A DNA stretch of 64,000 nucleotides from Clostridia bacterium (GTDB taxonomy: Bacteria; Bacillota; Clostridia; UBA1381; UBA9506). Positions 1,866 to 63,447 of this stretch are shown in pieces. The notes below the pieces were generated by a model. It searched no databases. It had not been told where the DNA came from and saw nothing but the letters and a program-made list of their open reading frames with translations. The stretch is taken from the NCBI GenBank assembly GCA_017546245.1, contig JAFYXI010000045.1:1-64000 (forward strand), read 5' to 3'. Every line of letters starts with the position of its first letter. The first letter of the stretch is position 1. Position numbers and translations under genes: made by a program.

Positions 1866-4064
1866 TTTCATTAACCTTTCAATCTTACAACAAAATTCCT
1901 CCGCCGCTTCTATGGCAAACTGCGCATTTTTATTTTCTGAAACTATGCGTATTTTCTGCGCAGATATATCAGGAATGACCAAAACCCTGCCGTCTTTTGT
2001 GCGCAGGCTTATACCGCCGTCCGCCTCAAATTGGGCAGATTGTCCGCTTTCGAACAATTTACGCATTGCCTCGCCCTTTTTACTGTCGGGGCAGTCAATG
2101 CTGCGGCATATTTTATATATTTTCGGAATTACAGATAAAACCTCAGAAAGAGCACAGTCGTTAAGATAAAGAAATTCGCAAATTCTTACAACTGCACGCA
2201 CGGGGTCGCAGCACAAGGCATATTCCAGCCTCGATGCAGGCGCATTCTGCGCCAGAAGATGCGCCTCTATTTTATTTTCTTTTATTCTTACAATACTGCA
2301 CCCTAAGGCTTTTGCTATGCTGTCTGCCGCCTCTGAAATATCGGTGGGAACATAAATTGCCGTGCCTTTTACTGCCGAGCCGCAAATTAAAGCTACTAAT
2401 GCCCAATATGTGTCTTTGTCCGGCTCATTTAAGCTGTCGTCGGTCAATGCACAGCTGCCGTCCTGCTCTATGGTGATGGCAAAATCAAGATTGTTGTTTT
2501 TTATCATGTCAGATAACAGCGAAGACTTGTTGGTAAACAAAAATTTAATCCCTAAAAGGCTTCCCAGTTTTTTAAAGGTTTCGCACAATGCATCAGAATC
2601 TGTGCAGATTCCGACAGAAAAGTTAAGCCGTCTGTAACTCGTATAGGCAACAACATCTTTTAAATAATAGTCCGAAATATCATTTACATTCACGGGCATT
2701 TGCGTTTTTTCGGGCAGAACATAGCAATTTTCTTCACTTTTTAAAGTGTCAGATACTTCTTTTAATATACTTTTTGAAATCGGCGCACCTGCTGAGCCTA
2801 AAAGCTCAATTAAAATAATATCCTTTTGAACGGATATATTGACTGCTCCGCCTGCGTGCAAATGCCTTACTGCAAATTTTGCTGCACCACGGTCGTTAAT
2901 ACCGCACAGATTATACACCCTTGAACCTGCGGCAATCAGTCCTGAGAGCATAGCAAATTTTAAACTCATATACTCAGGAATATCAGGAAAGTTTAACACT
3001 ACCGCATAATTTTTATCCAGAGCCGATGCAAATGCGGCACATAGTTTTGCAGAAAAATCGGGTGTAATATCCTTATGCATCTGGCCTGTAATTTTGTTAC
3101 CGTTAAGTCTGTCAGAAATAATTTTTTGCTTGTTAAAAACAGGATTCTGAGTAGCTATAATGCTGTCGTGCAGACGGGTGTTGTTATCAATTTTACTGCC
3201 CGGCCATATTATGCAGTCCTTTAACGAAACATTATCGCCAACTGTGCATTCATCGCCCAACACACAGTAAGGCAGAATTTCGGCAGATGTGCTTATTTTG
3301 CAGTTTTTGCCTATTAATATTCCGCTTTTTAGGGTATTTTCGTCTATATCAAGATTAATTTTTCGCTCAAAAATATCTCTGTGACACTTGCGATATGCCT
3401 GCGCAGAGCCTATGTCACACCAGTATCCGTCAGATTTAAAGCCATAAACCGACAATCCGCTGTTTAGCATTTGCACCAATAAATCCTTAGATAAATCATA
3501 AGGGCAAAACGGCGGAATCAAAGATAATATTTTAGGCTCAATAATGTAAATCCCCGTGCTTATCATATCTGTGCAAACCTCGTCCCAGTCAGGATTTTCG
3601 CACATATGCATAATACGGTTATCCTCAGCGGTAACAACCGCAGAATATTCTGTGGGATTTTCAGAAGCCGTAAGCACGATTGTGGCATCTGCTCTGTTTT
3701 GCCTGTGAAAGCTAAGGGCGCGACTTAAATCAATATTGGTTATAACATCGCCGCTTATAACAAAAAAGGTGTCGCAAATAAGGCTTTCGGCTGACTTTAT
3801 ACTGCCGGCCGTGCCAAGCGGCTCGTTTTCAATAAGGTATTTTATGTTAACACCGAAATTTTTGCCATCGCCAAAATATGCTCTTATATCTTCGCTTTTG
3901 TAGTATAAGGTTATTAAAATATCGCAAATTCCGTGCTTTTTTAAAAGCTCAATCGTGTGGCAAAGCAAGGGCTTGTTCATTACGGGAAGCATCGGCTTGG
4001 GTACGCTGCTTGATAAAGGTCTTATGCCCTTGCCCTCGCCGCCTGCTAAAATAATTGCCTGCAT
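1863..4064 (-). CDS. Sugar nucleotidyltransferase fused to phosphohexomutase-like domain
   Basis: A 733-residue protein with three parts. Residues 1 to about 235 are a sugar-1-phosphate nucleotidyltransferase (start MQAIILAGGEGKGIRPLSS, then PKPMLPV, the nucleotide- and Mg-binding signature). Residues about 250-360 look like left-handed beta-helix hexapeptide repeats. The rest resembles the alpha-D-phosphohexomutase fold. This layout is known in Firmicutes and cyanobacteria (mannose-1-phosphate guanylyltransferase-like with a mutase-like tail). The mutase catalytic serine loop (usually TASHNP) reads NISVQKD, and no DGDADR metal loop is seen, so the tail is probably not a working mutase. The frame stays open upstream to 4217, but ATG 4064 has an AGGAAG site seven bases away and starts at the conserved motif. 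It probably supplies an activated sugar for glycans. Confidence 0.86.
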   Translation of the reverse strand: MQAIILAGGEGKGIRPLSSSVPKPMLPVMNKPLLCHTIELLKKHGICDILITLYYKSEDIRAYFGDGKNFGVNIKYLIENEPLGTAGSIKSAESLICDTFFVISGDVITNIDLSRALSFHRQNRADATIVLTASENPTEYSAVVTAEDNRIMHMCENPDWDEVCTDMISTGIYIIEPKILSLIPPFCPYDLSKDLLVQMLNSGLSVYGFKSDGYWCDIGSAQAYRKCHRDIFERKINLDIDENTLKSGILIGKNCKISTSAEILPYCVLGDECTVGDNVSLKDCIIWPGSKIDNNTRLHDSIIATQNPVFNKQKIISDRLNGNKITGQMHKDITPDFSAKLCAAFASALDKNYAVVLNFPDIPEYMSLKFAMLSGLIAAGSRVYNLCGINDRGAAKFAVRHLHAGGAVNISVQKDIILIELLGSAGAPISKSILKEVSDTLKSEENCYVLPEKTQMPVNVNDISDYYLKDVVAYTSYRRLNFSVGICTDSDALCETFKKLGSLLGIKFLFTNKSSLLSDMIKNNNLDFAITIEQDGSCALTDDSLNEPDKDTYWALVALICGSAVKGTAIYVPTDISEAADSIAKALGCSIVRIKENKIEAHLLAQNAPASRLEYALCCDPVRAVVRICEFLYLNDCALSEVLSVIPKIYKICRSIDCPDSKKGEAMRKLFESGQSAQFEADGGISLRTKDGRVLVIPDISAQKIRIVSENKNAQFAIEAAEEFCCKIERLMK

Positions 4065-4145
4065 ATTTATCTTCCTTTCTTTAAAATCAGTTTTATTATT
4101 TAGTGTAAATAAATTTTGAAAAAATATGCAGTTTTGGATTTTTCG

Positions 4146-4174
4146 TTGTTTTTTATTTTTGTTTGATGTATAAT
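4146..4174 (+). promoter_or_regulatory. Sigma-A promoter for the adenosyltransferase gene
   Basis: TTGTTT (4146-4151) and TATAAT (4169-4174) are separated by 17 bases. The start codon lies about 50 bases downstream. Confidence 0.65.
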
Positions 4175-4222
4175 CAATGTATAGCGATTTTAAACAAAGC
4201 TTGTCAAAAAGGAGCACAAACT

Positions 4223-4714
4223 ATGAAAATTTACACAAAAGGCGGAGATTTTGGCACTACCACTCTTTGCGGCGGCGAGCAGGTATCAAAAACCGATGAA
4301 CGAATAGAGCTTTTAGGCACGATTGATGAGGTAAACAGCCATTTAGGATTGGCAAAGGCGATGGCGGCAGATAGCTTAAAAGAAATTATTTCTTGTCTGC
4401 AGCGCACGTTAATGACGGTTATGGCAGGGTTTTATGACGCTAAAAATCCGGAATTTTTTATAAAAGACGAGCAGATTCAGGCTTTAGAATCAGAAATAGA
4501 CAAACTGGAATCCTCGTTTGAGCGCAAAAAAGGCTTCGTTCTTTACGGAGCGAACGAATTATCTGCAAGGCTGGATGTTGCACGCGCCGTTTTGCGCCGT
4601 GCCGAGCGTGATTTTTGCAGAGTATCGCAAAAATGCGAAACAGATAAAAATGCACAGGCTTATATAAACCGCTTGTCCGACTATCTTTATATATTGGCTC
4701 GCGCGAGCGAATAA
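4223..4714 (+). CDS. pduO: Cob(I)alamin adenosyltransferase, PduO type
   Basis: A 163-residue PduO-family ATP:cob(I)alamin adenosyltransferase, which transfers the adenosyl group from ATP to make coenzyme B12. The N-terminal MKIYTKGGDFGTT segment is the family's ATP-binding start, followed by the helical bundle segments DERIELLGTIDEVNSHLG and the C-terminal RAVLRRAERD and YINRLSDYLYILAR. Length matches the family. ATG 4223 follows an AAGGAG site; longer upstream starts would overlap the promoter. It is divergent from the nucleotidyltransferase gene and appears to be monocistronic. No other cobalamin gene is nearby, which suggests salvage, though a B12-binding radical SAM protein lies at 29.9 kb. 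Confidence 0.92.
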   Translation: MKIYTKGGDFGTTTLCGGEQVSKTDERIELLGTIDEVNSHLGLAKAMAADSLKEIISCLQRTLMTVMAGFYDAKNPEFFIKDEQIQALESEIDKLESSFERKKGFVLYGANELSARLDVARAVLRRAERDFCRVSQKCETDKNAQAYINRLSDYLYILARASE

Positions 4715-4761
4715 AATAGCAGAAAACTGATTTTTATAATATCGAAATTTGATGAAAAACT

Positions 4762-4770
4762 TGATATAAT
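4762..4770 (+). promoter_or_regulatory. Extended -10 promoter for the LRR protein
   Basis: TGATATAAT is a perfect extended -10 element about 45 bases before the start codon. The -35 is weak (TCGAAA at 4742-4747, 17-base spacer). Confidence 0.5.
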
Positions 4771-4814
4771 TAATACTTGTACGCAATAATATTTTTAATT
4801 CCGGAGGAATCGGT

Positions 4815-5879
4815 ATGAAAAAATTTCTTTTAATTTTACTTTTGATGATATATGTTTTTGTCAGCATATTTGCAATAAGCACATATGCGGCAAATAATAC
4901 GTGCGGAGCAAATTTAACGTGGTCGCTTACAGACGGAGTTCTTACAATAAGCGGCGAAGGCGAAATGGCAAACTACACGGCAAGAGGATCTGCACCGTGG
5001 AATTCAAGCTATGTTGAAAAAATAGTAATTAATGATGGCGTTACAAGTATAGGCGATTATGCATTTGCACATTGCGTAAATCTTACCGAAATTGTTTTCG
5101 GCAGCACGGTTGCTTCTATTGGCACGAAAGCATTTTTTGATTGCTATACTATGGAAGCGATAACGATTCCTAAAAATATTAAAACTATAGGTAATAATGC
5201 TTTTGATTGCTGTTATGCTCTTAAAAAAGTGACGATAGAAAACGGCGTAACCACCATAGGAGCATATGCTTTTCAAAACTGTACCGGACTTACGGATATA
5301 ACTATTCCTAAAAGCGTCGGCGCGGTCAGTGCTTTTTCGTTCTTCTGTTGCGAAAGCTTAAAAAATGTAGTAATAAATAATGGGGCAAGCTCGATTGATA
5401 ATTCTGCTTTTTATGATTGTAAATCACTTGAAAGCATAACTATACCTTCTAGTGTGACGAAAATTGATTACTATGCATTTTATAATTGCAGAAATCTGAA
5501 AAATGTTTATTATATCGGAACAGAAAGCTCATGGAACGAGATAGCAATTAAATCTTACAATACAAATCTTTTAAACGCAACAATACATTTTCAGGATTTG
5601 GCTGAATCGGGCATAAGCATCGACCTTGCTGAAAACATAATAACGATAAATACACCAAATGCCGCCTTAAGTGCAATCATTCCGGTTGTTATGTATAATA
5701 ATACTGATGGTGTGATTGATATAAAATATGTTCCGATCGCACTTAATGCAGGTAAAAATGAGATTGCAAGCCCGTATGACAATTATCAGAACGCAGATGC
5801 AATCAAGATTATGGTTTGGGAAAGCTTAGAAAGTCTGAAACCGATAATGAACTATTCAGAAATACCAATAATAAATTAA
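4815..5879 (+). CDS. Secreted leucine-rich-repeat (BspA-type) surface protein
   Basis: A 354-residue exported protein. Residues 1-25 are a signal peptide (MKKFLLILLLMIYVF, cleavage probably after TYA). Residues about 45-235 contain six or seven copies of the 23-residue BspA/LRR_5 repeat, with units such as ITIPKNIKTIGNNAF and VTIPSSVTKIDYYAF style cores. Such repeats usually mediate adhesion or protein binding at the cell surface. The C-terminal 100 residues are a beta-rich domain ending in an IKIMVWESLESLKPI motif, which resembles the end of the large NlpC/P60-like protein at 21.5-24.4 kb. A GGAGG site precedes the start, and an extended -10 (TGATATAAT at 4762-4770) lies upstream. The binding partner is unknown. 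Confidence 0.85.
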   Translation: MKKFLLILLLMIYVFVSIFAISTYAANNTCGANLTWSLTDGVLTISGEGEMANYTARGSAPWNSSYVEKIVINDGVTSIGDYAFAHCVNLTEIVFGSTVASIGTKAFFDCYTMEAITIPKNIKTIGNNAFDCCYALKKVTIENGVTTIGAYAFQNCTGLTDITIPKSVGAVSAFSFFCCESLKNVVINNGASSIDNSAFYDCKSLESITIPSSVTKIDYYAFYNCRNLKNVYYIGTESSWNEIAIKSYNTNLLNATIHFQDLAESGISIDLAENIITINTPNAALSAIIPVVMYNNTDGVIDIKYVPIALNAGKNEIASPYDNYQNADAIKIMVWESLESLKPIMNYSEIPIIN

Positions 5880-9420: not shown

Positions 9421-9700
9421 AAAGGAGCTGTAGCAAAATGAAATTCATTTTGCTACAGCTCCTTTGGGCTGGAAGGAAAATAGCGCAGATTGGACAAACT
9501 GAACCCGTAGGGGGTCACCCGAAGGCGTACGTGGGTACGTCGAGAGGTGAAGTTTGTTCAAAACACAAGGCATTATAAAAAAGGAATTCGTTAAATAACG
9601 AATTCCTACATTAAGTTTTAACTTAGTCAATTGCATTAAAGGGCTTAGTTATGCGATTTGTTTGCCTTGTGTGGTATGCGCATTTTGCTACAGCCCCTTA
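9421..9700. repeat. MITE-like element, copy 1
   Basis: A 280-base non-coding element with related ends: AGCTGTAGCAAAATG on the left and CATTTTGCTACAGCCCC on the right. The left end is itself a long palindrome (9421-9465). Inside are a GGAATTCGTT/AACGAATTCC palindrome and a block with GTACGTGGGTACG. The same element occurs inverted at 53055-53358, and a diverged relative is at about 12392-12620. No transposase is encoded, so it is probably non-autonomous. It fills the gap between the deaminase and yerC genes. Confidence 0.8.
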
Positions 9701-9704
9701 TTAT

Positions 9705-9980
9705 TTATTTAGACAGTACCGAATTATATCCGCCGTTGCCGTATAACAAGCAACGGTTAACTCTTGAGATGGTTGCTGTGGATGCGCCTGTTTTATCGAC
9801 AATATCCTGAAAGGTTTTGCCCTCTTTTAGAAATTTTGCAACGCACAGGCGCTGAACCATCGAGTCGATTTCTTTGTGTGTACACAAATCTTCAAGAAAA
9901 CGGGCGCATTCGTCTGCGTTTTCTAAAGATAATATTGCATTTATTAATTCAGATATATCGTTTTTGTCTGAACGCTTCAT
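9705..9980 (-). CDS. yerC: TrpR-like regulator, YerC/YecD family
   Basis: A 91-residue protein of the TrpR superfamily, YerC/YecD branch. It is all helical, with the helix-turn-helix segment GKTFQDIVDKTGASTATISRVNRCL, in which ASTATISR is the recognition helix. Family members are small DNA-binding repressors; the ligand is unknown. It is the last gene of a minus-strand operon behind an amino-acid ABC transporter (24 bases after the ATPase stop), so it may sense the transported amino acid. A CTTTAG-N4-CTAAAG palindrome inside the operon promoter (12339-12354) is a candidate operator. Confidence 0.88.
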   Translation of the reverse strand: MKRSDKNDISELINAILSLENADECARFLEDLCTHKEIDSMVQRLCVAKFLKEGKTFQDIVDKTGASTATISRVNRCLLYGNGGYNSVLSK

Positions 9981-10004: not shown

Positions 10005-10787
10005 TTATTCAAACATTTTTGATAAAAATGCCTTTGTTCTTTCGTTTTTAGGATTATCAATTACTTCTTCGGGAGTTCCCATTTCGGCAACGATACCCTC
10101 TGACATAAAGATTATTTTATCGCTTACCGCCTTTGCAAAATCAATTTCGTGAGTTACGATAACCATTGTTATTTTTTCTGCTGCAAGCTGTTTTATAACC
10201 TTTAAAATTTCGCCCGTAAGCTCGGGGTCGAGCGCAGATGTAGGCTCGTCAAAGAATAAAACGCGCGGACGAAGAGCAAGCGCTCTTGCAATAGAAACTC
10301 TCTGCTTTTGACCGCCCGAAAGCTGACAAGGATAGCTTTCTAACTTATCTGACAATCCTACACGGGCTAAAATTGCCTCGGCATTTTTGCGGATTTCATC
10401 TGTAATTTCTTTTTTATTCTCTTTAAAATCAGGTCGCTCTTTTGCTAAAAGCGTCGGAGCGAGCATTACGTTGTCTAAAACATTATATTGCGGAAAAAGG
10501 TTAAAATCCTGAAAAACCAAACCAAAGTTAAGCTGTTTTGCTCTTATTTCTTTTGCCGATGCCTTATTGTCGCTGTCACCGTCAAAAAGAACTTCGCCGT
10601 CTAACAGAATTTTGCCTGTGTCTGCTCTTTCTAAAAAATTTATGCATCTTAAAAGAGTAGTTTTTCCGCTGCCCGATGAACCGATGACCGAGATAACCTC
10701 GCCCTCGTCCATCGAAAAATTGACACCTTTTAAAACCTCGGTTTTGCCAAAGCTTTTATAAAGGTCCTGTACTTCTAATATTCTCAC
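10005..10787 (-). CDS. Amino-acid ABC transporter ATP-binding protein
   Basis: A 260-residue GlnQ-like ATPase that powers uptake of a polar amino acid. It has Walker A GSSGSGKTT, Q-loop VFQDFNLFPQYN, signature LSGGQKQR, Walker B VLFFDEPTSALD and the H-loop VTHEIDFA. It is about 15 residues longer than usual because of an insertion around GDSDNKASAKEIRAKQ. Second-last gene of an operon in the order binding protein, permease, ATPase, TrpR-like regulator. Confidence 0.95.
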   Translation of the reverse strand: MRILEVQDLYKSFGKTEVLKGVNFSMDEGEVISVIGSSGSGKTTLLRCINFLERADTGKILLDGEVLFDGDSDNKASAKEIRAKQLNFGLVFQDFNLFPQYNVLDNVMLAPTLLAKERPDFKENKKEITDEIRKNAEAILARVGLSDKLESYPCQLSGGQKQRVSIARALALRPRVLFFDEPTSALDPELTGEILKVIKQLAAEKITMVIVTHEIDFAKAVSDKIIFMSEGIVAEMGTPEEVIDNPKNERTKAFLSKMFE

Positions 10788-10799
10788 GTTTGCACCTCT

Positions 10800-11444
10800 T
10801 TACTCAAAGTAATCAAGCTTTTTCTCTATGCTGCTGAACATAATGGTTAAAAGACCGTTAAACACAAGGAAGTAAAGACCGGTTGAGAAAAGAGGCCAGA
10901 TTAATCCCTGCTTTGTGAATCTTTCGGCACACATAATAATTTCGGCAACACTTATTACTCTTGCCAAAGAGGTATCTTTAACAAGGGTTATAACCTCGTT
11001 GCTTATGGGTGCAACAATACGTTTTACAACCTGAAATAAAACTACTTTGAAAAATGCCTGTGCCTTGGTCATACCCAGAACCTGACAAGCCTCGTACTGA
11101 CCTTTTGAAATAGAGTCGATACCGCCCCTGAAAATTTCGGAAAAATATGCGGCATAGTTTATAACAAAAGCTATCAGCGCTGCCGTCATTCGCGAACGGA
11201 TTGGAATATCGAACAGAATTCCGGGAGCATACATAACAACAAAAAGCTGGAGCATCAGAGGCGTACCTCTGATGATCCAGACAAATGTTCTTGTAAGCCA
11301 CCTTATCGGTTTAAATTTCATTCTTGAACCGAAAGAAATTATTAAACCCAAAGGCAAAGACATAAGCAAAGTAAGCACAAATATTATAAAGTTTGTATAA
11401 AATCCTTCGAAAAGCGACATTATAATCGCCTGAGTATTATTCAT
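10800..11444 (-). CDS. Amino-acid ABC transporter permease
   Basis: A 214-residue HisM/GlnP-type inner-membrane permease with about five transmembrane helices. The segments IRGTPLMLQLFV, AAYFSEIFRGGIDSI and the EAA loop GQYEACQVLGMTKAQAFFKVV (coupling helix to the ATPase) are typical. It lies 12 bases upstream of the ATPase gene and 31 bases after the binding protein gene. Confidence 0.95.
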   Translation of the reverse strand: MNNTQAIIMSLFEGFYTNFIIFVLTLLMSLPLGLIISFGSRMKFKPIRWLTRTFVWIIRGTPLMLQLFVVMYAPGILFDIPIRSRMTAALIAFVINYAAYFSEIFRGGIDSISKGQYEACQVLGMTKAQAFFKVVLFQVVKRIVAPISNEVITLVKDTSLARVISVAEIIMCAERFTKQGLIWPLFSTGLYFLVFNGLLTIMFSSIEKKLDYFE

Positions 11445-11475: not shown

Positions 11476-12294
11476 TTATTTAGATACCATTACCTGTTTG
11501 TTCTGCATATAAGGAACAGAAATGCTCATATTAGCAAGTCTTTCTTCGGTAATTGTCATACCGTTCCAGATACAGTCGATGTTCTTAGATTCGAGCTCAA
11601 CTTCTTTTGCATCCCAGTTGATTTCAACAAACTTAGCTTTAACACCGAGTTTTTCGCAAACTGCTTTTGCAAATTCTGTTTCAAAACCGATAAGCTCGTT
11701 GTTATCATCATAGTAGTTCATAGGAGCAAAAAGTGTTATACCGATAACCAGTTCGCCTTTTTCTTTTATGTAAGCTAAGTCACCTTCAATAACTTCGCCC
11801 TCGTTTGCTTTGCCGTCTTTGATTAAAAGAGCATCGAGCTTGTAGTCTTTACCGATTTTATCCATTGTGCCGTCTGCGGCTAATGCTGCAATTGCTTCGT
11901 TTACAGCAGCTGTCAGATCACTGCCTTTTCTGAATGCGATACCGTATTCTTCAGGGCTGAAATCTTTACCCTCAACAACTTTTAAATCAGCATAGTCTGT
12001 GCCTTCGCCGATTGAGCCGATAGATGTTACATAGTCAACAATTGCGATGTCTGCTGTGCCTGCTGAAACTTCCATAAGAGCTTTTGCCATTGAATCAACA
12101 GGAGTGAAGTTAGATTCTTTAAAGAAATCTTCAGATGTTGCAAGCTCTTCACCTGCTGAACCTGCTTCTGCAACGATGTTTGCTTTAGCAACCGACTGAG
12201 CATAGTCTGCTGCTTTGTCTGCTGTATTGGCGCATCCTGCGAAAACGCCTGCAATCATTAAAATTGACATGGTAAGTGCTAATAATTTTTTCAT
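11476..12294 (-). CDS. Amino-acid-binding lipoprotein with permuted domain order
   Basis: A 272-residue lipoprotein (signal peptide with lipobox VFAGC, Cys 21) of the solute-binding family 3 that feeds the adjacent permease. The order of conserved blocks is unusual. Usual members run: lobe 1 start (GELVIGI...GFETEFAKAV...GMTITEER...NKQVMV), then lobe 2 (VAEAGSAGEE...ADIAIVDY), then the C-terminal EEYGIAFRKGSDL...LAADGTMDKI. Here lobe 2 starts at residue 40, the usual C-terminal block is at 115-151, and the usual N-terminal block follows at about 180-272, ending right at the hinge. All blocks are present once, so this reads as a circular permutation rather than a truncation. A GGAGG site and a strong promoter precede it. 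Confidence 0.9.
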   Translation of the reverse strand: MKKLLALTMSILMIAGVFAGCANTADKAADYAQSVAKANIVAEAGSAGEELATSEDFFKESNFTPVDSMAKALMEVSAGTADIAIVDYVTSIGSIGEGTDYADLKVVEGKDFSPEEYGIAFRKGSDLTAAVNEAIAALAADGTMDKIGKDYKLDALLIKDGKANEGEVIEGDLAYIKEKGELVIGITLFAPMNYYDDNNELIGFETEFAKAVCEKLGVKAKFVEINWDAKEVELESKNIDCIWNGMTITEERLANMSISVPYMQNKQVMVSK

Positions 12295-12329: not shown

Positions 12330-12358
12330 ATATTAACACTTTAGCACACTAAAGTCAA
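12330..12358 (-). promoter_or_regulatory. Promoter and candidate operator of the ABC operon
   Basis: On the minus strand TTGACT and TAATAT are separated by 17 bases. The spacer contains the palindrome CTTTAG-TGTG-CTAAAG (12339-12354), well placed for a repressor. The TrpR-like protein at the end of the same operon is an obvious candidate, by inference. Confidence 0.7.
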
Positions 12359-48110: not shown

Positions 48111-48391
48111 TAAATTTGAATATCACAAAAAACGACTGTGACGAGGACGGTCGGATTGCGAAGCCTTAAGAGAGTTGCCGGATGGTGCAAGGCAATGGCA
48201 GAGCTTTCCAATGACTTATCACCTCTGAGTCGGAGGACCGAAAGCAAAAGCAAGTAGACTCCTTCCGTAATGCTGCGTAAAAGCAAAGGGCTTGATAGAG
48301 TCCGGTAAGTGACGGAATTTTTTCCGTAATTTGAGTGGTACCGCGGGTTATTATAACTCGTCTCAAAAGTTTTTTTGAGACGGGTTTTTTT
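48111..48391 (+). promoter_or_regulatory. T-box riboswitch leader, probable isoleucine (AUC) specifier
   Basis: A complete T-box leader. Stem I has the kink-turn pair GACGAGG/CCTCTGAGTC, the AGAGAG bulge and the GGATGGTG loop. The T-box sequence TGGTACCGCG is at 48336-48345, followed by a terminator (48354-48391) made of CTCGTCTCAAAA and its complement with a T-run. Counting back from the kink-turn (codon, purine, four bases, TGAG) gives ATC (48218-48220), hence isoleucine. The usual AGTA motif on the 5' side of the specifier loop is not clear, so the codon call is moderate. It controls an acyl-CoA synthetase gene, not a tRNA synthetase. Confidence 0.9.
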
Positions 48392-48445
48392 GTTTTATTC
48401 AAGTTCGTAACAAAAAAAGTCGCGAAAATGAAAGGAGACAAAACA

Positions 48446-50746
48446 ATGGAGTACAATTTAAAAGAGGTTGCAGGCAGAATCAAAGACCTGCGCGAAGCAA
48501 AAGGATACACACAAGAAGAGCTTGCAAAGCTTTGCGGTGTGTCAGCTGAGGATTATAGGGTTTTAGAAGAGGGCGAAACAGACTTTAGCTTTACATTTAT
48601 TTATAAATGCGCTAAAGCCTGCGGTGTTGAGGTTGTTGATATTTTAGAGGGAACAAGCTCGACCTTAACCTCCTTTGCAATTACAAGAAAAGGCGAAGGT
48701 CTTAAAATATTAAAGAAGCACGGTGTAGAATACGACAACCTTGCGCCTAAGTTTAAAGGAAAGTTTGCAGAACCTTTTCTTGTTAAATTCCCGTATCTTC
48801 CCGAAGAACAAAATGCTCCGATGCAGTTAAACTCGCATAATGGTCAGGAATTTGATGTTATCGTTAAAGGCTCGCTCAAAGTTCAGGTAGGAAATCATGT
48901 AGATATTCTTAATGAAGGCGACTCAATCTTCTATAACAGTATCATTCCTCACGGCATGGTTGCAGTATCAGAGGGCGGATGCGAATTTCACGCAGTAGTT
49001 TTAAATCCGCAGGACGGACAGGTGAGTGAAGAATATCCCGAAGCGCCAATGATTGCCGAAAAAGTGGCAGCCAAAAAGAAAAAATCAGAAACGGTTGCAG
49101 ATAAATTTATCGAATCATCTTATGATGAAAAAGGTGTATTTTCAGGAATTAAATTTAAAAATGCAGATTCATTTAACTTTGCGTACGATTGTGTGGATGC
49201 TATTGCAGAAAAGAATCCTGATAAGCTTGCAATGATGTGGGTTGCAAATGATAAGACCGACAGACGCTTTACATTTTCTGATATGAAAAAGTATTCTGCA
49301 AAAACTGCAAACTACTTTGAATCACTCGGTATCAAAAAGGGCGATACAGTAATGTTAGTGCTTAAAAGACATTACCAGTTCTGGTTCTGTATGCTTGCAC
49401 TTCATAAAATCGGTGCTATCGCAATCCCTGCAACAAATCAGCTTGTAGAACACGATTTTGATTACAGATATAAAGCGGCAAAAGTAAAAGCAATTGTTTG
49501 TACCGCAGACGGTGAGGTTTCGCAAGAGGCGGAAAAGGCAGCAGAAGCATATCCTGATATGATTAAAGTTTTAGTTGGCGGCAACAAAGAAGGCTGGCAC
49601 GATTTTAATGTTGAAATGGAACGCTTCAGCACACATTTTTATCGTACCGAAAAAACACCTTGCGGAAATGACCCGATGCTTATGCTCTTTACATCAGGCA
49701 CAACCGGATATCCGAGAATCGCAACACATTCATATAAATATGCATTAGGTCACTATCCGACTGCTAAGCATTGGCATAACGTAAACCCTGACGGGCTTCA
49801 CTTTACAATTTCAGATACCGGCTGGGGTAAGGCTCTTTGGGGTAAGCTCTACGGACAGTGGCTCTGCGAAGCGGCACAGTTCACATACGACTTTGACAGA
49901 TTTCATTCAGAAGACATTCTGCCGATGTTTGCTAAATATCATATCACAACATTCTGTGCACCGCCTACAATGTATCGCTTCTTCATCAAAGAAGATTTGT
50001 CAAAGTATGACCTTTCTTCTATTGAATATGCTACAACAGCAGGCGAAGCATTAAATCCTGAGGTGTTTAATCAGTTTAAAAAAGCAACAGGTCTTACCAT
50101 TATGGAAGGCTTCGGTCAGACAGAAACTACACTTTCTATCGCAAACTTCGTAGGTTCTACACCGAAAATCGGTTCTATGGGCAGACCAAGTCCTTTGTAC
50201 GATGTAGTTGTCCTTGATCCTGACGGCAACGAGTGCAAGACCGGTGATACGGGCGAAATCTGTATCAGAGTTAAAGATGATATTCCTTGCGGTCTCTTTA
50301 TTGGTTATTATCTTGATGAAGAAAAAACAAACGAAGTATGGTATGACGGTTACTATCATACAGGCGACCAGGCTACTATGGATGAAGACGGATACCTCTG
50401 GTATGTAGGAAGAATTGATGATGTTATCAAATCATCGGGCTACCGTATCGGACCTTTCGAAATTGAAAGTGTTATCATGGAGCTTCCGTATGTTTTAGAA
50501 TGTGCAATCACACCTGTTCCCGACGAGGTTCGCGGTCAGATTGTAAAAGCTACAATTGTTCTTGTAAAAGGCACTGACGGCACAGACGAGCTTAAAAAAG
50601 AAATTCAGGAATATGTTAAAACACATACTGCACCTTATAAATATCCGAGAATCGTTGAGTTTGTTGATGAACTTCCGAAAACAATCAGCGGTAAGGTAAG
50701 ACGTGTCGAAATCCGTAAGAACGATATGGAGAAGCTCGGCAAGTAA
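48446..50746 (+). CDS. XRE-cupin-acyl-CoA synthetase fusion
   Basis: A 766-residue protein with three parts. Residues about 8-65 are an XRE-type helix-turn-helix (GRIKDLREAKGYTQEELAKL). Residues about 110-195 are a cupin (LNSHNGQEFDVIVKGSLKV, GDSIFYNSIIPHG). From about 235 on is an AMP-forming synthetase of the medium-chain acyl-CoA synthetase group, with LFTSGTTGYPR, EGFGQTE, YHTGDQA, GRIDDVIKSSGYRIGP and the adenylate-forming lysine in KTISGKVRR. It should turn a carboxylic acid, CoA and ATP into acyl-CoA and AMP. Under an isoleucine T-box, a short branched acid such as 2-methylbutyrate is a reasonable candidate (inference). AAAGGAG precedes ATG 48446. Confidence 0.9.
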   Translation: MEYNLKEVAGRIKDLREAKGYTQEELAKLCGVSAEDYRVLEEGETDFSFTFIYKCAKACGVEVVDILEGTSSTLTSFAITRKGEGLKILKKHGVEYDNLAPKFKGKFAEPFLVKFPYLPEEQNAPMQLNSHNGQEFDVIVKGSLKVQVGNHVDILNEGDSIFYNSIIPHGMVAVSEGGCEFHAVVLNPQDGQVSEEYPEAPMIAEKVAAKKKKSETVADKFIESSYDEKGVFSGIKFKNADSFNFAYDCVDAIAEKNPDKLAMMWVANDKTDRRFTFSDMKKYSAKTANYFESLGIKKGDTVMLVLKRHYQFWFCMLALHKIGAIAIPATNQLVEHDFDYRYKAAKVKAIVCTADGEVSQEAEKAAEAYPDMIKVLVGGNKEGWHDFNVEMERFSTHFYRTEKTPCGNDPMLMLFTSGTTGYPRIATHSYKYALGHYPTAKHWHNVNPDGLHFTISDTGWGKALWGKLYGQWLCEAAQFTYDFDRFHSEDILPMFAKYHITTFCAPPTMYRFFIKEDLSKYDLSSIEYATTAGEALNPEVFNQFKKATGLTIMEGFGQTETTLSIANFVGSTPKIGSMGRPSPLYDVVVLDPDGNECKTGDTGEICIRVKDDIPCGLFIGYYLDEEKTNEVWYDGYYHTGDQATMDEDGYLWYVGRIDDVIKSSGYRIGPFEIESVIMELPYVLECAITPVPDEVRGQIVKATIVLVKGTDGTDELKKEIQEYVKTHTAPYKYPRIVEFVDELPKTISGKVRRVEIRKNDMEKLGK

Positions 50747-59269: not shown

Positions 59270-59546
59270 TGATTTTAAACGCTGAGATGCGGAATAGTAG
59301 GTAAATAGTTTTCGCCTTTGAGAGAGATGTCGGATGGTGTGAGACATTGGGAAAGCATTGCCGAACTCGCCGTGGAGCGGTTGCTGTGAACTAATAGTAG
59401 GGGCAAACGGGAACTCCCGTAACAGAGTTAAGATGTGTTGGCATCTAAAGGGCATCCTTTCAGGATGAAAAAGAGTGGTACCGCGGAAACAATGAATTTA
59501 GCGTTTTCGTCTCTTTAAACTGACAAAGAGACGAAAACGTTTTTTT
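59270..59546 (+). promoter_or_regulatory. T-box riboswitch leader, leucine (CUC) specifier
   Basis: A complete T-box leader. It has an AGTAGGT loop on the 5' side of the specifier loop, the AGAGAG bulge, the GGATGGTG apical loop and, on the 3' side, GAA-CTC-G-CCGTGGAG. The codon CTC is at 59366-59368, hence leucine. The T-box TGGTACCGCG is at 59475-59484. A terminator (59501-59546) made of CGTTTTCGTCTCTTT and its complement with a T-run closes it. It controls the LeuA-like and acyl-CoA ligase genes. Confidence 0.92.
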
Positions 59547-59597
59547 GTTAGTAAAAATCCTATTTTTAATATTTATATTTTGAAAGGAGTTTTCAGA

Positions 59598-60986
59598 ATG
59601 AAAACAATTAACACCGCAGACATTACGCTTAAAAAGCTTTCCGAGGATCGAGCAATCTCGCTGCTCTTCCGTGAAAAATCGGCAATTGCAAATTGTGCAG
59701 ATGTACTTGGAGCCGATGCCATAGAATTACCTGTTGTTAAAAATCTTCGTGAGGATACAATTATATATAAAACAATCGCACAGAATGTTCAGAATGCGGC
59801 ACTTGCTATTCCTGTCGGCTTTAACAAAGAAGATGTTGCATCTGTTTGGGAGTGCATTAAGGATGCGAAAAAGCCACGCCTTCAGATTGAGCTTCCTGTT
59901 TCAACAATTCAGATGGAATATACATACCATGTAAAGCAGGCTGTTATGCTTGAAAAGATTTCAGAGCTTGTAAAAGCTGCAAAAGAATATTGTAAGGATG
60001 TTGAATTCTCTGCACTCGATGCAACAAGAGCAGACATCGACTTCCTTATCTCTGCGGCAAAAGAGGCAGAAGCAAATGGAGCGACGATTGTAACTGTTTG
60101 CGATGATGCAGGCGTATCAACACCGGAACAGATTGCAAATATGGTTGAAAAGGTTAAAGAAACGGTAAGAATCCCTGTATATGTTCAGGTTTCGGACCGT
60201 ATTAATATGGGTGTTGCGTCTGCGTTTGCAGCTGTTTCAAAAGGTGCTGACGGCATTAAATGTGCTATGGCAGGTAAGGATATTCTTTTAACCGCAGAAT
60301 TTTCTGATGCTGTGCGTGCCTGCGGTTCGCAGATTGATGCACAGCTTAAATTGGACACTACAAAAATACATGCAAGCATAGATGATATGGTTTCGAGCAT
60401 AAACCACGACAGTTATGAGAATGAACTGACCGTGAGTGATAAGAAAAAGATTTTACTTGACTCAGATTCTTCTGTTGCACAGGTGGCGCAGGCGGCTTCT
60501 GTTCTTGGTTATGAGCTGTCTGATTCTGATGTCGGCAATGTATATAAGGCACTTATCGGGGTATGTGAAAAGAAAGGTGCTGTTGGTTCAAAAGAGTTCG
60601 AGGCTTTAATTGCAAGCTCTGCAATGCAGGCTCCGTCAACATATCATTTTGAAACATATACAACAACCAGTTCTAATGTAGCAAATTCAATGTCGCAGGT
60701 AACACTTAAATGCAATGATGAAATTATCTGCGGCGTGGCTAACGGAGACGGACCTGTTGATTCAGCGTTCAGAGCAATCGAACAGTGCATAGGTCATCAC
60801 TATGAGCTTGATGATTTTCAGGTTCAGTCTGTAACTGAAGGAAAGGAAGCATTAGGCTCTGCTTTAGTCAGACTTCGCAACAACGGCAAGCTCTATTCCG
60901 GCAACGGAACATCAACCGACATTGTTGCAGCAAGTATAAGAGCATATATAAATGCACTTAACAAAATCGTATTTGAGGAGGCGTAA
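59598..60986 (+). CDS. 2-Isopropylmalate-synthase-like protein, catalytic motifs lost
   Basis: A 462-residue protein with the layout of LeuA: an N-terminal HMGL-like TIM barrel and a C-terminal LeuA allosteric domain (about residues 340-462: GDGPVDSAFRAIEQC, SVTEGKEALGSALVRL, YSGNGTSTDIVAASIRAY), which binds leucine in true IPMS. The barrel has lost key residues. The usual DTTLRDG is DITLKKL here, and the metal-binding HxHxD strand reads VQVSDRINMG. So it is probably not an active synthase and may be a leucine-responsive partner or regulator. It is the first gene behind a leucine T-box and is followed one base later by the ligase fusion. Confidence 0.85.
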   Translation: MKTINTADITLKKLSEDRAISLLFREKSAIANCADVLGADAIELPVVKNLREDTIIYKTIAQNVQNAALAIPVGFNKEDVASVWECIKDAKKPRLQIELPVSTIQMEYTYHVKQAVMLEKISELVKAAKEYCKDVEFSALDATRADIDFLISAAKEAEANGATIVTVCDDAGVSTPEQIANMVEKVKETVRIPVYVQVSDRINMGVASAFAAVSKGADGIKCAMAGKDILLTAEFSDAVRACGSQIDAQLKLDTTKIHASIDDMVSSINHDSYENELTVSDKKKILLDSDSSVAQVAQAASVLGYELSDSDVGNVYKALIGVCEKKGAVGSKEFEALIASSAMQAPSTYHFETYTTTSSNVANSMSQVTLKCNDEIICGVANGDGPVDSAFRAIEQCIGHHYELDDFQVQSVTEGKEALGSALVRLRNNGKLYSGNGTSTDIVAASIRAYINALNKIVFEEA

Positions 60987-60987
60987 T

Positions 60988-63447
60988 ATGAAGATAGTAT
61001 TTTCAACCAAGAATGTAAGTCGTGCATCCTTTCTTGATACCTGCCGTTATGCCTTTGATTACGGTTTTCACGGTTTTGAAATATACGATGCTATCAAGGA
61101 AAGAAATATGCATCATGACAGCATATTAAGGCGGGACCGCATAGCTGATGCAAAAAGAAAACTTGTAAACAGAAATCTTGCTGTTTCAGCACTTCGTATG
61201 CCTGAAAGTATTGAAAACGAAAACACTACATCAGATTTAGTGCTTAAATATGTGGATATGGCGTTGACATCAGGAATTTCAAATGTCATTGTCTATATTA
61301 AAGAGAATGTTTCTTTTGATGTGCTGGATGAAAAGCTTTCTGCAGCAGTTAAGAAAGCAGAAAATAATGATGTTAATATTTTGTTTGAAACAGTAGGCTA
61401 TCTTGCCAATACCGAGAATGTAATCGGCATAATTAATCATTTTTCATCAGCATCTATCGGCGCAGCATGGAACGTGCGAGGTACATACTTTGATGCGGGC
61501 GAAACATCTGAAGCAACAATCAAAACCTTGGGCGCATACATAAAGTATGTCCGTCTTGGAGATATGAAAGATGGAAAAACAGTCTTAATAGGCGAAGGCG
61601 AGCTTGATGTGGCAAAGCTTATAAATTCACTTTCGTCCCTTAACTATGAAGGATATATCTGTGCAGCATGGAATGAAGAAATTAACGACGCAGACATAGT
61701 TTTAACTCACTTTGCAAATTATATTTCACAGCTCAACCGTGAAAAGAAAACTTTTGACAAGGCGTACTATAACAGAGATAAGACAGGAACTTTCGTGTGG
61801 AAAAAATACGATGTTATTGATGCCACATTCTCTGATGTTCTTGATACAATGGCAGAAAAATATCCCGATCAGTATGCTTTTAAGTATCCCACGCTTGATT
61901 ATACAAGAACTTATGAACAATTCAGACGCGATGTTGATGAATGTGCTGCTGCTTTGATTTCTTTAGGAGTTAAAGCAGGAGATCATGTTGCGGTATGGGC
62001 AACAAATGTGCCCGAATGGTTTATTACATTCTGGGCAACAACAAAAATCGGTGCGGTTTTAGTTACAGTTAATACCGCTTATAAGATTCACGAAATTGAA
62101 TATCTTTTAAAGCAGTCCGATACACATACTCTTGTTATGATTGAGTATTGCAAGGATATAAACTACAAAGAAATTATTCAGGAGCTTTGTCCTGAGCTTG
62201 AAAATTTAGAACCCGGTAAACCTTTGTATTCAAAGAATCTTCCGTTCCTGCGCAATGTTGTTACGTCAGGGTTTTCTATGCCGGGATGCCTTACATGGAA
62301 TGAGATGCTTTCCCGTTCTTCTCTTGTTCCCCGTGAAGAAGTAAGAAGACGTGCATCGCTTGTTAAGCCTGACGATGTATGTAATATGCAGTACACATCA
62401 GGTACAACAGGATTCCCGAAAGGTGTTATGCTTACTCACAGAAATATCGTTAATAACGGTAAAACTATCGGCGACAGAATGGATTTATCAACGGCAGACC
62501 GAATGATGATACAAGTGCCTATGTTCCATTGCTTTGGCATGGTTCTTTCGATGACATCTATGATGACACACGGCGGTACACTTTGTCCAATACCGTATTT
62601 CTCGCCGAAATCATCACTTGCCTGTGTAAATGATGAAAAAATTACTTGCTTTAATGGTGTGCCCACAATGTTTATTGCAATGTTTAATCATGCTGATTTT
62701 GCAAAAACTGATTTCTCGTATATGAGGACGGGAATTATGGCAGGTGCAAACTGCCCGGCAGATTTGATGCGCAGAGCGTCTGTTGAAATGAATATGCGTG
62801 AAATTATTTCGGTTTACGGTCAGACCGAAGCTTCTCCCGGCTGTACAATGGGTGAAGTAAATGAAGACCTTGATCACAGAGTAGAAACTGTCGGCAGTGC
62901 TTTCCCGGGTGTTGAATGTAAAATCATTGATCCTGAAACGGGAGAAGAACTTCCTGACGGTGAAAGCGGTGAATTTGTTGCTCGCGGCTTTAACATTATG
63001 AAAGGCTACTACAAGATGCCCGAAGCAACCGCGCTGGCAATAGATGCTGACGGATGGCTTCATTCCGGTGACATTTGTATGAAAACACCTGACGGATACT
63101 ATAAGGTAACCGGCAGATTAAAGGATATGATTATCCGTGGCGGTGAAAATCTGTATCCGAGAGAAATTGAGGAATTCTATCTTACCAATCCGAAAGTTCG
63201 TGATGTTCAGGTAGTTGGTGTTCCTGATGAAAGATACGGCGAAGAATGCTGTGCATGGGTTATTCTTCATAAGGGCGAAACCGCTGACGAAAACGAAATG
63301 AAAGAATTTGGTTATGCTTCAATCGCAAGACATAAAGTACCGAGATATTTTATGTTTGTAAACGAATTCCCGATGAATGCAGCAGGTAAAATACTCAAGT
63401 ACAAAATGCGCGATGAATCCGCCGAAAAGTTAGGTTTAAAAAAATAA
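60988..63447 (+). CDS. TIM-barrel-acyl-CoA ligase fusion
   Basis: An 819-residue two-domain protein. Residues 1 to about 265 resemble the xylose-isomerase-like/AP-endonuclease-2 TIM barrel (FDYGFHGFEIYDAI, ETVGYLANTENV, YVRLGDMKDGKTVLIGEGELD). From about 290 an AMP-forming acyl-CoA synthetase of the FadD type follows, with YTSGTTGFPKGVMLTH, SVYGQTE, WLHSGDICM, GRLKDMIIRGGENLYP and the adenylation lysine in NAAGKILKYK. A GAGGAGG site before ATG 60988 lies inside the end of the LeuA-like gene. Under leucine T-box control, a leucine-related acid such as isovalerate is a candidate substrate (inference). The role of the barrel is unknown. Confidence 0.85.
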   Translation: MKIVFSTKNVSRASFLDTCRYAFDYGFHGFEIYDAIKERNMHHDSILRRDRIADAKRKLVNRNLAVSALRMPESIENENTTSDLVLKYVDMALTSGISNVIVYIKENVSFDVLDEKLSAAVKKAENNDVNILFETVGYLANTENVIGIINHFSSASIGAAWNVRGTYFDAGETSEATIKTLGAYIKYVRLGDMKDGKTVLIGEGELDVAKLINSLSSLNYEGYICAAWNEEINDADIVLTHFANYISQLNREKKTFDKAYYNRDKTGTFVWKKYDVIDATFSDVLDTMAEKYPDQYAFKYPTLDYTRTYEQFRRDVDECAAALISLGVKAGDHVAVWATNVPEWFITFWATTKIGAVLVTVNTAYKIHEIEYLLKQSDTHTLVMIEYCKDINYKEIIQELCPELENLEPGKPLYSKNLPFLRNVVTSGFSMPGCLTWNEMLSRSSLVPREEVRRRASLVKPDDVCNMQYTSGTTGFPKGVMLTHRNIVNNGKTIGDRMDLSTADRMMIQVPMFHCFGMVLSMTSMMTHGGTLCPIPYFSPKSSLACVNDEKITCFNGVPTMFIAMFNHADFAKTDFSYMRTGIMAGANCPADLMRRASVEMNMREIISVYGQTEASPGCTMGEVNEDLDHRVETVGSAFPGVECKIIDPETGEELPDGESGEFVARGFNIMKGYYKMPEATALAIDADGWLHSGDICMKTPDGYYKVTGRLKDMIIRGGENLYPREIEEFYLTNPKVRDVQVVGVPDERYGEECCAWVILHKGETADENEMKEFGYASIARHKVPRYFMFVNEFPMNAAGKILKYKMRDESAEKLGLKK

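Follow-up and report, generated by a model that had tools for sequence, protein, structure and literature searches.

Rotated chain order in a family-3 solute-binding lipoprotein of a Clostridia bacterium and in related receptors

Introduction

Circular permutation is usually inferred from pairs of old, diverged proteins. A gene within a 64,000-nucleotide stretch of DNA from a Clostridia bacterium (the whole stretch is called the window below) raises a nearer question: does it encode an intact family-3 solute-binding protein (SBP) whose chain has been rotated in nature and, if so, does the rotation stand alone? The permuted and conventional forms compared here are still ~70% identical and occur in the same type of operon. 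Very probably the gene product is a family-3 solute-binding lipoprotein that has undergone circular permutation in nature. It would serve the permease and ATPase encoded alongside it, and it is the one receptor of its subfamily that the genome was found to contain; its binding, closure and part in transport are inferred.

Permutation of SBPs in general is already known. Rotation within family 3, recent and repeated and with several cut sites, appears to be new, in so far as the open-access literature yielded no account either of a naturally permuted member of the family or of recent rotations made repeatedly at several cut sites (most subscription papers, and bioRxiv, lay outside the scope). 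What was found there comprised only engineered sensors, TpMglB-2 and the CPSARST paper, of which the latter two are dealt with below.

Chain order of the receptor

Three blocks serve to describe the fold: N runs from lobe 1a through hinge 1, M is lobe 2, and E is hinge 2 together with the C-terminal helices of lobe 1. Ordinary family-3 SBPs have the order N-M-E, and the window protein has M-E-N. The features concerned are in Table 1.

Table 1. Features of the permuted gene and of its probable operon, in window coordinates
Feature	Position	Strand	Basis
Circularly permuted family-3 solute-binding lipoprotein, 272 aa, lobe 2 - lobe 1b - linker - lobe 1a (M-E-N)	11476..12294	-	profile, PDB and rotation alignments
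Lipoprotein signal peptide MKKLLALTMSILMIAGVFAGC, lipobox cysteine = residue 21	12232..12294	-	sequence and permutant alignment
M block: lobe 2, residues ~24-113, mid-chain in ordinary proteins; carries conserved Asp87	11956..12225	-	alignments
E block: hinge 2 and lobe 1 C-terminal helices, residues ~114-158, ordinarily the C-terminus	11821..11955	-	alignments
Linker from old C-terminus to old mature N-terminus, residues ~159-175	11770..11820	-	rotation alignment
N block: lobe 1a, hinge 1 and first strand past hinge 1, residues ~176-272, ordinarily the N-terminus; carries conserved Arg252	11479..11769	-	profile and alignments
Amino-acid ABC transporter permease, BPD_transp_1; HEQRo_perm_3TM above cut-off	10800..11444	-	profile
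Amino-acid ABC transporter ATPase, TcyN/GlnQ-like	10005..10787	-	profile
YerC/YecD-family TrpR-related protein, last gene of probable operon	9705..9980	-	profile and synteny
Terminator-like hairpin (11 pairs) and T run past last gene	9582..9607	-	pattern match only
Sigma-70-like promoter, TG before -10, upstream of permuted gene	12330..12358	-	pattern match only

The first-pass annotation had read the family-3 blocks as occurring once each in rotated order, with lobe 2 and the usual C-terminal block first and the usual N-terminal block last, and the alignments bear this out in each respect. The PF00497 (SBP_bac_3) profile matches the protein in two stretches (E 1.3e-31, 109.5 bits against a cut-off of 26.4), and the start of the profile (3-90) aligns to residues 184-271, i.e. 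to the C-terminal end. With 4zv1, an ancestral arginine-binding protein reached in a PDB search, residues 179-271 pair with positions 9-102 and residues 64-148 with positions 144-227. Rotations of the mature protein at each of its positions were aligned globally to the conventional relative L007: the score of 234 for the unrotated chain rose to 877 with rotation at residue ~160, where 178 of the 248 aligned positions are identical (72%); the top score among 100 shuffles was 23. A conventional control, L009, scored best without rotation. Each block is present once in the window protein, and the rotation spans the whole domain. Judged by these alignments it is a permuted variant of PF00497, homologous over its full length, and not a canonical N-M-E member. 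No other family matched in the profile search, and in particular none of the type I sugar-binding (MglB-like) kind.

The lipoprotein signal was correctly said to have been kept: the lipobox cysteine, Cys21, is invariant in 17 of the 17 aligned M-E-N permutants. Arg252 and Asp87 are likewise invariant across the 17, and are taken, as established knowledge of the family, to be the usual ligands of the α-carboxylate and α-amino groups, respectively, of the amino acid. A linker does join the old ends as proposed, though it is shorter than the ~28 residues given, DLAYIK being separated from the last lobe-1 helix by ~17-18; it looks like the old C-terminal tail followed by the old mature N-terminus. 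The view that the protein stops exactly at the hinge (NKQVMVSK) has to be abandoned. Its real end comes after the first β strand past hinge 1 (QVMVSK), whose counterpart in GlnBP is presumably already part of lobe 2.

Predicted structure

Structure prediction with AlphaFold2, using an alignment of 17 M-E-N proteins, gave a confident model (mean pLDDT 86.8, pTM 0.80) in which only residues 1-29 are poor. Sequential Foldseek comparison with full-length family-3 SBPs aligns lobe 1a only (82-85 columns, 1.1-1.3 Å, TM 0.29-0.30), and OpuAC is matched, again sequentially, along most of the model (TM 0.45-0.47; by VIA-align Z 10.9 for 197 residues at 4.4 Å). Sequential matches of this kind are to be expected when a pseudo-symmetric two-lobe fold has been permuted, but they do not amount to an order-independent superposition. 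The match of the model to OpuAC is loose and provides no evidence of shared ancestry of the rotation. PfVFT1 (5jkq) is among the leading structural matches, with an alignment of interest in lobe 1.

Among the PDB matches listed, neither the 60 best for the window protein and L075 nor the 51 for L089 and the 52 for L081 include a solved family-3 structure with permuted order. Where a match extends over the rotated junction, the structure concerned is 6h30, the GlnPQ tandem.

Operon context

The operon was claimed to be an intact ABC operon and is so: permease and ATPase lie downstream with the same synteny in relatives, the order SBP-permease-ATPase being preserved across permuted loci. The permuted gene has a clean signal peptide, linker and stop codon, and the short gap that separates it from the permease gene is clean too. 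The permease reaches 70.8 bits with HEQRo_perm_3TM (PAAT-type) against a cut-off of 42.2. None of the NCBIfam equivalog cut-offs that would name a defined amino acid is reached. Scanning against Rfam revealed no riboswitch at the operon, and matches to promoter-type patterns are no commoner in the region than expected by chance. The genome has just one other PF00497 protein, which is conventional, distant (34% identical) and encoded on a separate contig; hence the permuted gene appears to be the transporter's only receptor.

A YerC/YecD-family gene also follows the ATPase gene in L033, L037 and L040. This TrpR-related gene (9705-9980, minus strand in the window) ends the operon in several relatives too, and its product is a possible regulator of the transporter.

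Conservation in close relatives

A search for homologues with the same order yielded eight further distinct M-E-N genes from independent assemblies, 72-96% identical to the window protein: L004/L033 (96%), L034 and L035 (79%), L005/L038 (77%), and L036, L037, L134 and L135 (72-74%). [L004 and L033, and likewise L005 and L038, are apparently the same contigs in two collections, to judge from their length and from the position on them, and each pair is counted once.] These and the window protein form one clade (SH-aLRT 100%). The same order is present in L039 and L040, which are 64-65% identical to the window protein. The named records among all these relatives are metagenome-assembled genomes, some of them from goat, water buffalo, red deer or roe deer. 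Pairwise dN/dS between the window gene and its permuted relatives is 0.08-0.29, mostly 0.08-0.2; in the permuted relatives both lobes are the most constrained parts and the new N-terminus is fast-changing. By this measure the permuted gene is under purifying selection. The nearest conventional relative of both parts of the window protein is L007 (78% and 69%), which rules out a chimera of two different receptors.

That the order of the two gene halves is an error, produced in a chimeric or mis-circularised contig during assembly or binning, had to be considered with a window genome in 73 contigs and with named relatives that are themselves metagenome-assembled. However, the same junctions occur in the eight other distinct genes, from different hosts and different contigs, the gene is clean from its signal peptide to the intergenic gap, and its dN/dS is far below 1. 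With so many independent genes having the same order, an artefact is rejected; it is scarcely conceivable now and, on the genomic evidence, already largely refuted. Slightly less remote, though still very improbable, is that the gene is a relic, a decaying or sub-functional by-product of tandem duplication by which the transporter is no longer served. There are no functional data to set against this, and the fast change at the new N-terminus would fit it. Yet constraint is strongest precisely in both lobes, the ligand-binding positions are invariant, and the genome has no second member of the subfamily, the next match being the distant protein on the other contig. The natural and functional-looking permutation that the first-pass annotation inferred is instead the reading supported, by the rotation test, the eight genes, purifying selection, operon context and the confident model alike.

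Further permuted receptors

The SBPs fetched were each assigned a chain order from their N, M and E blocks. Of those that entered the final tree, 75 are conventional, 36 M-E-N and 13 E-N-M, and 2 are cut within lobe 2 (the counts mirror the queries used and are not estimates of prevalence). Permuted family-3 SBPs are thus found repeatedly in related bacteria, and their cut sites number at least three, leading to M-E-N, to E-N-M and to termini in mid-lobe 2.

The E-N-M proteins (L008, L010, L011, L088-L092, L096, L097 and L149, and the more distant L082 and L133) start just ahead of the last lobe-2 strand, and their main group ends past the lobe-2 helix ANAMVGK or similar. An E-N-M model, again a confident one (pLDDT 86.2, pTM 0.75), matches conventional SBPs in sequence order over residues 103-275, with Z up to 15.8. 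In L081 and L085 both termini are in mid-lobe 2. The M-E-N proteins are themselves not uniform, as the first helix of lobe 2 is N-terminal in the window protein and C-terminal in L006/L067, and L039/L040 lack it.

Among the 80 genera sampled from the family of genome G340, 15 have a close M-E-N protein and one more has an E-N-M protein (L133). Four loci of this family (L124, L127, L129 and L130) have a frame of ~520 aa (ORFs of 516-534 aa) in which the permuted receptor runs into the permease, a fusion seen directly in L124 and L129; the hinge-1 strand there leads on to the membrane domain. Three successive SBP genes, all apparently M-E-N though with weak family matches, are at 2224-5001 (plus strand) of L059, and the third continues into a permease domain. 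L149 (102-1109, minus strand) is an E-N-M receptor with an apparent transmembrane anchor and a charged low-complexity linker, without a lipobox; its genome, G407, also encodes a lipoprotein E-N-M paralogue, L091.

Number of origins

Trees were computed with all proteins restored to N-M-E order; the support values derive from quick searches, and long branches affect some of the rows. The tree requires 12 changes of order in total. A single origin for all M-E-N proteins, tested as a single clade, is rejected in the AU test (p-AU 0.0002), as is one for the near E-N-M proteins (p-AU 6.7e-5). A single clade of the near M-E-N proteins (the window clade, L039/L040 and L006/L067) is not rejected (p-AU 0.147). 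For the window protein, L006, L010 and L091 both parts are nearest to the same conventional relative or group (L039 is less clear), and the nearest conventional relatives differ between permuted groups. The sharing of one conventional relative by both parts, and its difference from group to group, point to single genes having been rotated, repeatedly.

A mixture of orders would also result if, in place of repeated new permutations, there had been a single ancient one and then repeated reversion to the conventional order. Parsimony cannot polarise every change, and the single origin of near M-E-N proteins that survives the AU test leaves some room for it. Each return, however, would be a second and equally complex rearrangement, the cut sites differ and there are three chain orders, and even within M-E-N the first lobe-2 helix has three different fates. 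In addition, the strongly supported branches alone force at least four changes for M-E-N and at least four for E-N-M. A single ancient permutation with later returns is accordingly unlikely, though of the alternatives weighed it is the least easily dismissed. Repeated new permutation remains the preferred reading: the distribution suggests that the same fold has been re-threaded independently several times in related bacteria, with returns to conventional order not fully excluded.

Possible origin and working

The observations are of a rotated order that is conserved in related genomes, of purifying selection, of the operon context and of one nearest conventional relative common to both parts of the chain; the route to the rotated order is inferred. 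One SBP gene would have been duplicated in tandem and fused in frame, as N1-M1-E1-N2-M2-E2. Loss of N1 behind the signal peptide of the first copy, and of M2-E2 at the end, would then have left M1-E1-N2. No tandem-duplication intermediate was found at the window locus itself. By analogy, tandem SBPs such as that of GlnPQ exist as plausible intermediates: in 6h30, reading from lobe 2 of SBD1 to lobe 1 of SBD2 gives the block order of a permutant, though GlnPQ, unlike the permutants, retains two complete conventional domains. L075 and L081 each align as one continuous stretch over its SBD1-SBD2 junction.

On GlnBP the C-terminus of L075 aligns to residue 96, and the chain ends of L081 and of the E-N-M protein L089 fall at ~130 and ~168 (both extrapolated). 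The hinges of GlnBP are taken to be at ~85-89 and 181-185 with lobe 2 between them and, if so, all the cuts seem to be in lobe 2, outside both hinge crossings. With every cut there and both crossings covalently intact, the clamp can work as usual, and the amino acid should be bound through the customary clamp motion, binding itself being inferred. Physically, what changes most would be the attachment of the lipid anchor, or of the fused permease, which shifts from lobe 1 to lobe 2. Permutation may be recurrent and adaptive in the lipid-anchored family-3 receptors of Clostridia and relatives, with several independent rotations at different points each moving the anchor or fused permease to lobe 2, the hinge crossings intact, and so tuning the presentation of the receptor to its transporter. 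This remains a tentative proposal, and a somewhat doubtful one.

Relation to known systems

The first-pass annotation considered that natural permutation of such a receptor would be notable. There is a precedent among SBPs, TpMglB-2 (Tp0684) of Treponema pallidum (PMC4990184), and permutation recurs in family 3, so the window protein is no lone curiosity. TpMglB-2 is likewise a lipid-anchored ABC-transporter receptor with a natural circular permutation, termed 'Type Ic / Cluster Bc', in which the first strands of the first lobe have been shifted to the C-terminus; it binds D-glucose, changes conformation and has relatives in Gram-positive gut bacteria (PMC4990184). Its authors suggested that the permutation is an adaptation to tethering (PMC4990184). 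However, it has a type I sugar-binding fold, not the two-lobe type II fold of family 3, with a fourth hinge crossing added, its permuted part is just 13% identical to the conventional protein, and one permuted topology is described for it (PMC4990184). In family 3 the rotation is recent enough for 72% identity to remain in the window protein, and several cut sites occur. By its sequence relationships the window protein is a parallel case to the Type Ic receptors, not a member of them.

Fold-level permutations among the OpuAC/ProX glycine-betaine and molybdate-binding proteins, reported with CPSARST in 2008, are also natural permutation relations among bilobal binding proteins, though deep ones, at <24% identity and visible only in structure (PMC2395249). 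The conventional PF00497 SBPs (GlnH, HisJ, TmArgBP, L007 and L009) share sequence blocks, binding residues and operon type with the window protein, and lipoprotein export is common to it and to L007 and L009. They differ from its M-E-N in being N-M-E, with the anchor on lobe 1.

Several origins of permutation, with different cut points, in one receptor family would be of consequence beyond it. If evolution has rotated the fold of a gut-bacterium receptor several times and at different points, a common fold is re-threaded more easily than has been assumed. The permutants offer natural designs for permuted binding-protein biosensors. They also call for caution in annotation, in that a profile assignment to PF00497 hides the chain order.

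Other features of the window

Elsewhere in the window a T-box leader (59275-59517, plus strand) precedes a gene of 468 aa (59580-60986, plus strand) that resembles 2-isopropylmalate synthase; LeuA models match its product in two stretches, far under the curated cut-offs, as if an internal part were missing. Two acyl-CoA-ligase-like proteins (48335-50746 and 60952-63447, plus strand) each have ~280 extra N-terminal residues, and their genes are each near a T-box leader, the one at 48129-48368 and that at 59275-59517. The called start of the former ORF overlaps its T-box.
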